Origin: Bacteroidota bacterium | GTDB lineage: Bacteria; Bacteroidota; Ignavibacteria; Ignavibacteriales; Melioribacteraceae | DNA length: 45,701 bases | Assembly: GCA_021801605.1 (NCBI GenBank) | Contig: JAJYXU010000084.1 | Coordinates: forward strand, 1 to 45,701 | Reading direction: 5' to 3' | Shown: in pieces, positions 31,748-38,212 of the stretch | Layout: each line of letters starts with the position of its first letter | Position numbering within the stretch: position 1 is the stretch's first letter | The notes under the pieces: generated by a model | Seen by the model: the letters and a program-made list of their open reading frames with translations, nothing else | The model's database searches: none | Told to the model about the DNA's origin: nothing | Program-made: the position numbers and the translations under genes

Positions 31748-32017
31748 TTACTTTCTTATGTTTAATTCTTTAATTATTGTGCGATATCTTTCAATATTTT
31801 TGCTTGCAAGATAATCAAGCAATCTTCTTCTTTTTCCAACCATCTGCATCAATCCGCGTCTTGAAGCGTGATCTTTTTTATGCGCTTCGAAGTGACCTGT
31901 AAGACGATTAATTTCTTCCGTAAGCAATGCGATCTGAACTTCGGTTGTACCGCTATCCTTTTCTCCTTTACCGAATTTTTTGATTACCGCAAGTTTTTCT
32001 TCTTTTGACAACGACAT
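31748..32017 (-). CDS. rpsO: 30S ribosomal protein S15
   Basis: An 89-residue S15, which binds the central domain of 16S rRNA early in assembly. Family segments include [59 protein letters not shown] lies 10 bases before the ATG. In many bacteria S15 represses its own translation through leader structure; the 200-base leader here contains palindromes and element C, but no specific S15 site can be claimed. Confidence 0.97.
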
Positions 32018-32096
32018 TTTACTACTCCTTTATTTGTTTGTTCGATATAACCCCAGAATGAACCGGAGTTTATTAGTTAGTTAATTTTCCTTTGTA

Positions 32097-32144
32097 GAGC
32101 AGATTTTTAATCTGCTCACAATAACACATATTAAATCTGTGTTA
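32097..32144. repeat. two short palindromes in the rpsO leader
   Basis: GAGCAGATT/AATCTGCTC (32097-32105 and 32109-32117, three-base loop) is a perfect 9 bp hairpin. It is followed by TAACACA/TGTGTTA (32122-32128 and 32138-32144). Neither has a U-run on the minus strand, so they are not plain terminators. They abut element C and may be a remnant of a related element or a folded leader of rpsO. Confidence 0.6.
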
Positions 32145-32149
32145 CTAAT

Positions 32150-32244
32150 GGCATCTCTAAAACTTCAAAAGCTAATCTGTGAAAATCTGTTTTTATCCGC
32201 TTTATCCGTGTCTCATTTTTTAAAAAATAGTTTTTAGAGATGCC
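32150..32244. mobile_element. MITE-like element C, inserted in the ribF end
   Basis: A 95 bp element with inverted repeats GGCATCTCTAAAACT (32150-32164) and AGTTTTTAGAGATGCC (32229-32244), differing by one extra T. It is flanked by the direct repeat CTAAT (32145-32149 and 32245-32249), a probable target-site duplication. The interior has AATCTGTGAAAATCTG at 32174-32189, matching elements A and B. The right end overlaps ribF: the final codons RASLKTIF and the stop come from the element or its edge. It carries no gene. Confidence 0.75.
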
Positions 32245-33167
32245 CTAATGATTTCCTGAGCTGTTTGTTTATCAATTTCTATCTGATGAATCAACGCCTC
32301 TTTCGATTCAAATCTAACCTCATCACGCAACCGTTTTAGAAATTCTACTTTCATAGATTTTCCATAAATATCACAATCGAAATTCAATAGATGAGCTTCG
32401 AGAACCAGTTCGTGTTTATTTTCAAACGTCGGTCTATATCCGATGTTCATTATTCCAATATGTTTTTCATCTTTCAGAAAACAGTCAACAACATAAACGC
32501 CGTTTTTGGGGACTGCTTTCCTCGGTTCATCCAGCTTAATGTTAGCCGTTGGAAAACCAAGTGTTCTTCCGCGCTGAGCACCAATTACAACTTTACCCGA
32601 AAAAGAATAATTTCGTCCCAAAAATAAATTGGCTCGTTCAACATTTCCTTCAGCAAGAGCATTTCTAATTTTTGTTGAGCTGATAATTTCTCCGTTCAAA
32701 CTTTCTGCCGATACATCGGTAACATCAAAATTATTAAGTCTGCCAACTTTACTGAGAATATTAACATCGCCCAATCTATCTTTGCCAAATTTATGATCGT
32801 GTCCGATAACCATATGAGCAGCGCCGATCTTCTCCACAATGAATCGTTTAATAAATTCATCCGAAGTTAGTTGTGAAAACTCTTTAGTAAAGTTTATCAC
32901 CATCAAATTTTCAATCCCCGCACTTTCAAGGATTTCTTTTTTTTCATCAAGCGATGTTAAAAGTTTCATATCAAAATCTTTTGAAAGAACAAAACGTGGA
33001 TGCGGTTCAAATGTAACAACAAAACCGTTTCCGTTTTTTTGGGCTGCAGTTTTTTTTACTTCATTAAGAATTTTTAAGTGCCCAAGGTGCAAACCATCAA
33101 ACGATCCAACAGTTACAACCGCATTTCTTGTATTTATATTTTCAGAAACTTCTGTATAAACTTTCAT
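32220..33167 (-). CDS. ribF: bifunctional riboflavin kinase/FAD synthetase
   Basis: A 315-residue enzyme that makes FMN from riboflavin and then FAD. The N-terminal nucleotidyltransferase domain has GSFDGLHLGHLKIL (HxGH motif), FVVTFEPHPR and ISSTKIRNALAEG; the C-terminal flavokinase domain has GRTLGFPTANIKL and KNGVYVV...IGIMNIGYRPTF. The last about seven codons and the TAA lie within mobile element C, so the natural C-terminus has been replaced, although all conserved parts remain. The ATG is one base past the truB stop. Confidence 0.95.
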   Translation of the reverse strand: MKVYTEVSENINTRNAVVTVGSFDGLHLGHLKILNEVKKTAAQKNGNGFVVTFEPHPRFVLSKDFDMKLLTSLDEKKEILESAGIENLMVINFTKEFSQLTSDEFIKRFIVEKIGAAHMVIGHDHKFGKDRLGDVNILSKVGRLNNFDVTDVSAESLNGEIISSTKIRNALAEGNVERANLFLGRNYSFSGKVVIGAQRGRTLGFPTANIKLDEPRKAVPKNGVYVVDCFLKDEKHIGIMNIGYRPTFENKHELVLEAHLLNFDCDIYGKSMKVEFLKRLRDEVRFESKEALIHQIEIDKQTAQEIIRASLKTIF

Positions 33168-36831: not shown

Positions 36832-36862
36832 TGTATGATTATCCGTTTAAGTGTTCTGTTTA

Positions 36863-36963
36863 TGAGGCGTATCTAAAAAGGTCTATTCCGCTATTTTGGA
36901 TTGTGGAAATAAACCGAATTCAAAATTTTTCTATAATGATATTACTTTTTTAGAGAAGACTCA
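36863..36963. mobile_element. diverged MITE-like element D
   Basis: About 100 bp bounded by imperfect inverted repeats: GAGGCGTATCTAAAAAGGT at 36864-36882 and the complement of GAGTCTTCTCTAAAAAAGT at 36944-36962, agreeing at 15 of 19 positions. With one more T on each end (36863 and 36963) the flanks are TTTA on both sides (36859-36862 and 36964-36967), a possible target-site duplication overlapping the nusA stop. The ends share TCTAAAAA with element C, but the interior lacks the common core. It fills most of the nusA-infB gap. Confidence 0.5.
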
Positions 36964-36964
36964 T

Positions 36965-38212
36965 TTATTCTTCTTCTTCAAATTGATTTTCAAGAATTTC
37001 AATTATCTGTTTAGCTTTTTCTTCATCAAGCCCTTCAATCTCTTTGAGCTTATCAATTCCGGCGGCAAGAACTTCCAGTGCTGTATCTAACCTGTTGTTG
37101 ATTAGCAAGTCCACCATCTCTGTAGTTAATTCTTCACGGAGTTCTATAAGTTCAATATCTTCGTCATATTCTTCGAACGGCTTTTCTAACCTGATCACTT
37201 CTATTTCGTAACCGCTTAGTTTAATTGCAAGACGAATGTTAACGCCGTTCCGTCCGACTATTAACGATACTTGATCGCTATCGGCAGTTACAACACATTT
37301 CTTGGCATCTTCATCAATCTCGATCTGTTTTAATTTTGCCGGGGCAATGCACCTTTGGATGAAAACGACCGGGTCTTCCGAGTAGTTGATGACATCAATA
37401 TTTTCATTATTCAACTCGCGTACAATTGCATGAATACGTACACCCTTCATTCCAACGCAAGCGCCAACTGCGTCAATACGGGGATCGCTCGATTCAACTG
37501 CAATTTTGGCTCTTTCACCGGGTTCGCGTGCTATACCTTTGATTTCAATTACACCGTCATAAATTTCCGGAATTTCGATTTCAAACAATCTTCTCAAGAA
37601 AAGATTATCCGCACGCGAAACTAAAATGACCGGTCCGTTCGGAGTTTTTTTAACATCTTTAACAACAGCACGCACCGTATCACCTTTTCTGTATTTTTCA
37701 CGCGGAATTTGTTCGTGGCGCGGTAAAAGCAATTCGTTCTTGTTATGATTAACCAGTACATCATTTCTTCTTACCTGATAAATATCGCCTACAACAATCT
37801 CACCAAGCATTTCAACGTATTCATTGTAAATAATATCTTTTTCAATCTCTCTAATTTTTTGATTCAAACTTTGGCGTGCAAGGTTTATTAATCTTCTTCC
37901 AAATTCTTTCAATTCAATTTTCTGAACAAAATCTTCGCCTACTTCAAGTCCGTCTTCATTTCCTTTTTCATTCAATTCATCAATACTTATTTCAGTAGCC
38001 GGATCATTTACGGTATCAACTATAGTTCGTTCAAGAAATATTTCTATATCTCCCTTGTCCATGTTAACAACAACATCATATTTGGCTTCTAATCCAAATT
38101 TCTTTTTTACCATAATCCCAAAGATTTCTTCTATGATCCCTGCAAGAACGTCTTTATCAAGACTTTTCTCGCGGACCATTTGAGCAAAGGATTCTACTAT
38201 TTCGGTGTTCAT
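36965..38212 (-). CDS. nusA: transcription termination/antitermination factor NusA
   Basis: A 415-residue RNA polymerase-binding protein that modulates pausing, termination and antitermination. In order: N-terminal polymerase-binding domain (1-about 135), S1 domain (VVGDIYQVRRNDVLV...), KH1 (IDAVGACVGMKGVRIHAIVRELNNENIDVI) and KH2 (KKCVVTADSDQVSLIVGRNGVNIRLA), then an acidic tail with one helix-hairpin-helix-like segment (DKLKEIEGLDEEKAKQIIEIL). GAGGAG precedes the ATG. The operon leader holds a terminator-like hairpin, a possible target of NusA itself. Confidence 0.97.
   Translation of the reverse strand: MNTEIVESFAQMVREKSLDKDVLAGIIEEIFGIMVKKKFGLEAKYDVVVNMDKGDIEIFLERTIVDTVNDPATEISIDELNEKGNEDGLEVGEDFVQKIELKEFGRRLINLARQSLNQKIREIEKDIIYNEYVEMLGEIVVGDIYQVRRNDVLVNHNKNELLLPRHEQIPREKYRKGDTVRAVVKDVKKTPNGPVILVSRADNLFLRRLFEIEIPEIYDGVIEIKGIAREPGERAKIAVESSDPRIDAVGACVGMKGVRIHAIVRELNNENIDVINYSEDPVVFIQRCIAPAKLKQIEIDEDAKKCVVTADSDQVSLIVGRNGVNIRLAIKLSGYEIEVIRLEKPFEEYDEDIELIELREELTTEMVDLLINNRLDTALEVLAAGIDKLKEIEGLDEEKAKQIIEILENQFEEEE

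Follow-up and report, generated by a model that had tools for sequence, protein, structure and literature searches.

Locus and host genome of ribF

The question raised by this locus was whether the last codons and the stop of ribF had been supplied by a short mobile element, as was proposed in the initial annotation. The window, that is the whole 45,701-nucleotide stretch of DNA that was analysed, corresponds to contig C24 of a draft genome of 3.24 Mb in 189 contigs, and the set of genomes used for comparison includes 11 from the same genus. The ribF gene lies on the minus strand (32220-33167) and encodes a bifunctional riboflavin kinase/FAD synthetase of 315 aa, identified by a PRK05627 match (321 bits) and by matches to the FAD_syn and Flavokinase domains. 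A homologue with 90% identity was found in Bacteroidetes bacterium WY4.bin45, and several more in Melioribacter MAGs, which makes the source a Melioribacter-like member of the Ignavibacteria. The order of genes on the minus strand is what we take to be nusA, infB, rbfA, truB, ribF, rpsO and pnp, with ribF, rpsO and pnp in one common direction. The next gene of the operon after ribF, rpsO (S15), is located at 31748-32017 (minus strand), and the S15-leader match obtained at 31961-32075 on the same strand is weak (15.8 bits; gathering score 39.5). A CCGG..CTGG hairpin before rpsO was found again in the relatives that were read, and an extra nested stem seen at the rpsO leader in some relatives is absent in this genome.

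Anatomy of element C and the end of ribF

Element C (32150-32245, minus strand) is a 96-bp MITE without a transposase gene, and its minus strand begins GGGCATCTCTAAAAACTATTTTTTAA. Its terminal inverted repeats are GGCATCTCTAAAA at 32150-32162 and TTTTAGAGATGCC at 32232-32244 (both given as the plus strand), which are complementary at 13/13 nt, and the second of them is read in the ribF frame. The fold of the element as single-stranded DNA beat 200/200 shuffles (z -5.0). The initial annotation had described flanking CTAAT repeats. Direct repeats do flank the element, but the 5-bp length was rejected: the paralogues show duplications of 4 bp, so the target-site duplication at ribF, read against them, is TAAT (32146-32149 and 32246-32249). 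The apparent fifth base, the C of CTAAT, is on the ribF side the outer base of element C itself (32245) and on the other side the first base of the GTAA tag of an adjoining REP. Element C is without one outer base, as is its close paralogue L002/L105.

The captured tail RASLKTIF with its TAA occupies 32220-32246 of the minus strand. After the target copy ATTA the coding strand reads GG GCA TCT CTA AAA ACT ATT TTT TAA, in which GG completes the Arg codon AGG (32244-32246; the A at 32246 belongs to the target copy), followed by GCA (32241-32243), TCT, CTA, AAA, ACT, ATT, TTT (32223-32225) and the stop TAA (32220-32222). All codons from AGG to the stop are inside the element except the one base of AGG, and the contribution of element C to ribF is two bases of the Arg codon, the seven residues ASLKTIF and the TAA stop. 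The reading of the inverted repeat as part of the tail was thereby confirmed codon by codon. When element C and one target copy (100 nt) were removed, a RibF of 328 aa instead of 315 aa was obtained, the joined frame staying open for the 21 codons past the common Ile-Ile that had been predicted (SNTDLICVIVSRLKICSTKEN). As a former state this extension is only a possible intermediate and is not proven to be ancestral, because the adjoining REP dimer also altered the ribF junction.

We consider it very probable that element C represents one copy of a non-autonomous DNA transposon (MITE), of a kind that duplicates 4 bp of AT-rich target on insertion, that it was inserted at ribF, and that this insertion, with the capture of the last codons and the stop, explains the present end of the gene. 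A transposase acting in trans would have inserted the element at an ATTA in the 3'-terminal part of ribF, immediately beyond the conserved riboflavin-kinase fold, and the ribosome would read 26 nt into the element, add seven residues and terminate at the TAA of the element. The core of the original proposal is supported by the inverted repeats, the dispersed copies, the codon reading, the differing tails of relatives and the clean empty site of another copy.

The conserved parts of RibF were stated to be unbroken, which agrees with the Flavokinase match, since it stops at residue 306, before the captured tail. Residues past about 303 are unconserved. In an AlphaFold2 model built from 15 sequences, with an overall mean pLDDT of 84.9, residues 289-314 form the final helix, and the mean pLDDT is 83 for 301-310 and 49 for 311-315. 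The model suggests, with low confidence, that the captured residues only lengthen a terminal helix. The change of tail would be tolerated because the last residues are unconserved and merely extend this helix. The explanation does not require selection for a new function.

RibF ends in relatives and the neighbouring REP dimer

RibF is present in 38/38 relatives beyond the genome itself, and its gene's 3' ends were compared in 29 relatives and 38 named-genome loci, two sets that partly overlap. Across both sets, element C was not found at ribF and no RibF ended in RASLKTIF; the case that the initial annotation had named as fatal to its claim, relatives that lack the repeats yet share the tail and stop, was thus not encountered among the relatives examined. 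The nearest RibFs, those of G006 and G001 (90% and 87% identical), stop at 309-310 aa with the tails EAQKEKIN and EAQKEKLTN, inside TTAACTAATTAA, a short way ahead of the rpsO leader and 76-78 bp before rpsO, and neither a MITE nor a REP dimer is present at the ends of these genes. The RibF at L041/L132 ends ..FIKN (its 3' end was taken from the DNA), and the ribF locus of L155 carries a frame break. An exact empty site at ribF was not found; G011 (70% identical in RibF), the sole relative whose 3' flank is similar, differs at the insertion point.

The REP-like dimer (32094-32145, minus strand) abuts the target copy of element C. It is composed of a GTAG-tagged palindrome (32094-32117) and a GTAA-tagged palindrome (32122-32145), with both tags pointing outward. 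It is dispersed, with 31 matches in its own genome, some of them in tandem arrays, and five Y1_Tnp matches were found in the same genome. With its tagged palindromes in an opposed pair, its many copies and the Y1_Tnp matches in the genome, the dimer has the traits of a REP/REPIN. Tandem REP units with a spacing of about 77 bp were also seen over several hundred bases at the starts of two contigs (L174 and L175; G000 C174 and C112).

In G011 (L037) a similar REP dimer occupies this position but the MITE is absent, and the RibF ends KQTAQGIIKTYS, its stop TAA being supplied by the GTAA tag, that is by the first bases of the dimer. A GTAG/GTAA dimer is thus found at the end of ribF in two species whose RibFs share about 70% identity, and is absent from closer ones. 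The ribF junction has evidently been altered at least twice in this lineage, because the closest relatives are without element C and the REP dimer and end at 309-310 aa. It might be supposed that the new end of ribF is due to the REP dimer and not to the MITE, in that the dimer first displaced an end of the KEKIN type and the MITE later only shortened the foreign tail from 328 to 315 aa. Such an order is suggested by the dimer of G011, with its stop in the GTAA tag and no MITE beside it, and by G006 and G001, which have neither insert. However, the dimer of this genome can be aligned with that of G011 over part of its length only. The two may be homologous or parallel, and may be separate insertions because most of ribF is closer to G006/G001 than to G011. 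We rate this history at slightly under an even chance; it would alter the past of the junction and not its present anatomy, since in either case the MITE holds the codons and the stop that are in use now.

The MITE family in this genome and others

A search of the genome with the 95-bp element returned 74 matches at E <= 10, of which seven, element C included, were full-length over 95 bp. A scan of 49 loci of the genome gave 24 two-ended copies, or 23 after L027 had been removed as a member of a second family. A perfect 4-bp duplication flanks 16/23 of these copies (15, plus L021, whose boundaries were corrected for mispaired ends). The paralogues have an outer G/C pair and duplications such as TTAA, TTTA, TAAA and TATA. 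The ends of the family are of the form GGG(C/T)ATCTCTAAAAACT. Two-ended copies in this genome are 86-161 bp long, and the longer versions (142-161 bp) contain an extra stem (CCCCGTGGAATA...). Seven one-ended matches (L069, L070, L081, L084, L086, L088 and L089) are by their appearance chance hits or remnants.

Beyond this genome, matches at E <= 0.001 were obtained in 3/38 relatives (G006, G011 and G014), none of them at ribF, and the exact 17-nt end pattern occurs in 7/79 genomes of the taxonomic family, this one included. An autonomous partner with the same ends was not found among the pattern loci examined, whose two-ended spans are of MITE size (up to 225 bp), the genome being a draft assembly. 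The main DDE_Tnp_1 transposase (on C50), whose gene was returned below the cut-off by a PF13701 search, has other ends, being bounded by unrelated repeats. As far as a limited literature search goes, the family is undescribed, and no paper on MITEs in Ignavibacteria was returned by a search of weak reach.

A second MITE-like family was observed in the window at 36863-36963 (101 bp), with the ends TGAGGCGTATCTAAAAA / TTTTAGAGAAGACTCA and a TTTA duplication at 36859-36862 and 36964-36967; the right-hand TTTA holds the stop (36965-36967) of the upstream nusA-like ORF. Contig C188 (L027) carries a similar stretch of 203 bp with the same types of ends.

Other copies at gene ends

An ORF of 60 codons or more terminates within four of the 24 two-ended copies: those at ribF, at a gene for a MoxR-type ATPase, at a lipoprotein-like gene and at L020. 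The lipoprotein-like gene (L224) has KGISKNYYLKNRTPIYPVE as its tail here and KRFK in G006. G006 has CAACTTAAGCGATTTAAGTGA at this place, with one TTAA and an uninterrupted 3' end, whereas this genome has CAACTTAA, then the element, then TTAAGCGATTTAGGTGA. This empty site directly shows, by comparison of the two sequences, a tail capture by the MITE family at the lipoprotein-like gene, and capture at ribF itself is strongly supported. The initial annotation had looked to relatives for an empty site that holds a single target copy and goes with another tail; no such site was found at ribF, but there is one for this copy. In G006 a MITE of the same family also lies shortly beyond the stop of the lipoprotein-like gene. 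The MoxR ATPase (AAA_3) ends NKLRVSLKTII inside an element, its G006 orthologue (96.9% identical) ends NKLMQ, and the contig stops right after the element, the right flank being TTAA only.

These copies also bear on whether the inverted repeats could be a native terminator or mRNA-end hairpin of ribF in this lineage, formed with no insertion. As RNA the junction has a strong predicted structure (z -4.3), and the repeats are located at a gene end, as a terminator would be. However, relatives are without the repeats at ribF, copies occur at many other sites with 4-bp duplications, one of them with a clean empty site, and ribF is followed by rpsO and pnp in the same direction. In view of the dispersed copies and of that empty site, a native terminator is refuted, and we regard it as extremely improbable.

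L020 was not counted as a capture, since the gene is broken and the target copies are unequal (TAAA/TATA). The copy at L020:1149-1648 lies between N-terminal and C-terminal pieces of an apparent single gene, which suggests a deletion beside the insertion. The copy at L003:1501-1596 is read through, with a frame open for 491 codons from the start of the element; it may be situated where a gene begins (5' end) or lengthen the N-terminus of the product. In loci of other genomes, no ORF that reaches 60 codons terminates inside any of the 15 two-ended copies.

The placement of copies was counted with mechanical, uncurated ORFs of at least 100 codons and without L027. Of the 23 copies, 12 are within 45 nt of a stop, eight are elsewhere outside ORFs and three are inside ORFs, the element at ribF being scored as interior since the joined frame is open. 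Of the TTAA, TTTA, TAAA and TATA sites in the same loci (n=2111), 161 are near stops, 371 elsewhere outside ORFs and 1579 inside. The near-stop share of non-coding sites is therefore 12/20 for the copies vs 161/532 for the target words (one-sided p 0.007). This crowding near gene ends is suggestive only, because the copies are few, the ORFs are uncurated, the sites share loci and the ribF element was scored as interior.

Both this crowding and the near identity of the captured tails of RibF and MoxR (..SLKTIF and ..VSLKTII) might be taken to mean that the tail is adaptive, the SLKTI peptide or the mRNA stem tuning the host protein or the operon mRNA. However, the SLKTI peptide is what one reading frame of the repeat encodes, and copies should gather at gene ends anyway if insertions in genes and promoters are lost, so an adaptive tail is judged very unlikely. 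Loss of harmful insertions, together with targets that resemble stop codons, accounts for the crowding. There is likewise little reason to expect a recurrent portable gene end, in which a preference for TTAA/TTTA/TAAA-like targets would steer the MITE family to TAA-rich gene ends and give unrelated essential proteins ..SLKTI-F/I, a TAA and an mRNA 3' stem, an effect kept by selection.

Comparison with known systems

The end of ribF, the gene of an essential flavin enzyme, offers a clean, datable case of a protein C-terminus rewritten harmlessly by a short mobile repeat. The same genome adds the MoxR ATPase and the lipoprotein-like protein, the latter with an empty site that is preserved in G006. 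The case also calls for caution in annotation, since a lineage-specific tail beside a repeat of this kind does not represent conserved function. That repeats can make new C-termini is already in print.

GTAG-tagged REPs are described as short palindromes with an outer GTAG that form dimers and tandem clusters, and the groups listed for them are Proteobacteria, Cyanobacteria, Chloroflexi and the PVC group, this lineage not being among them (PMC3733652). The dimer next to element C resembles them in its tagged short palindromes, in its paired and tandem arrangement and in the Y1_Tnp genes of the genome, and differs in that one partner carries GTAA.

Parallels to element C itself have also been described. 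In the Erwinia amidase gene ECA3499, ERIC/RU-1 replaced the normal stop and added residues past the conserved domain, the new stop lying inside RU-1 and the amidase having 496 instead of about 461 aa (Delihas 2007; PMC2759123). Element C likewise adds residues beyond a conserved domain and brings its own stop, whereas ERIC/RU-1 belongs to another repeat family, adds a longer peptide and occurs in another host group. In Coxiella burnetii, the overlaps of QMITE1 and QMITE2 with functional genes are described as all at 3' ends, with C-termini changed and length changed little (PMC5896051). Element C is similarly a MITE that altered a C-terminus at the 3' end of a gene, although the QMITEs have other sequences and are longer, and the direct repeats of QMITE2 are 7-9 bp vs 4 bp here. 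Rickettsia palindromic elements, as cited in a review (PMC2229807), are mobile palindromic repeats translated within conserved proteins. Element C is also a mobile palindromic repeat translated as part of a protein, but it ends ribF, whereas the Rickettsia elements are open-frame insertions within genes. Set against these systems, the element family is new, and the phenomenon is known from ERIC/RU-1 and the Coxiella QMITEs.
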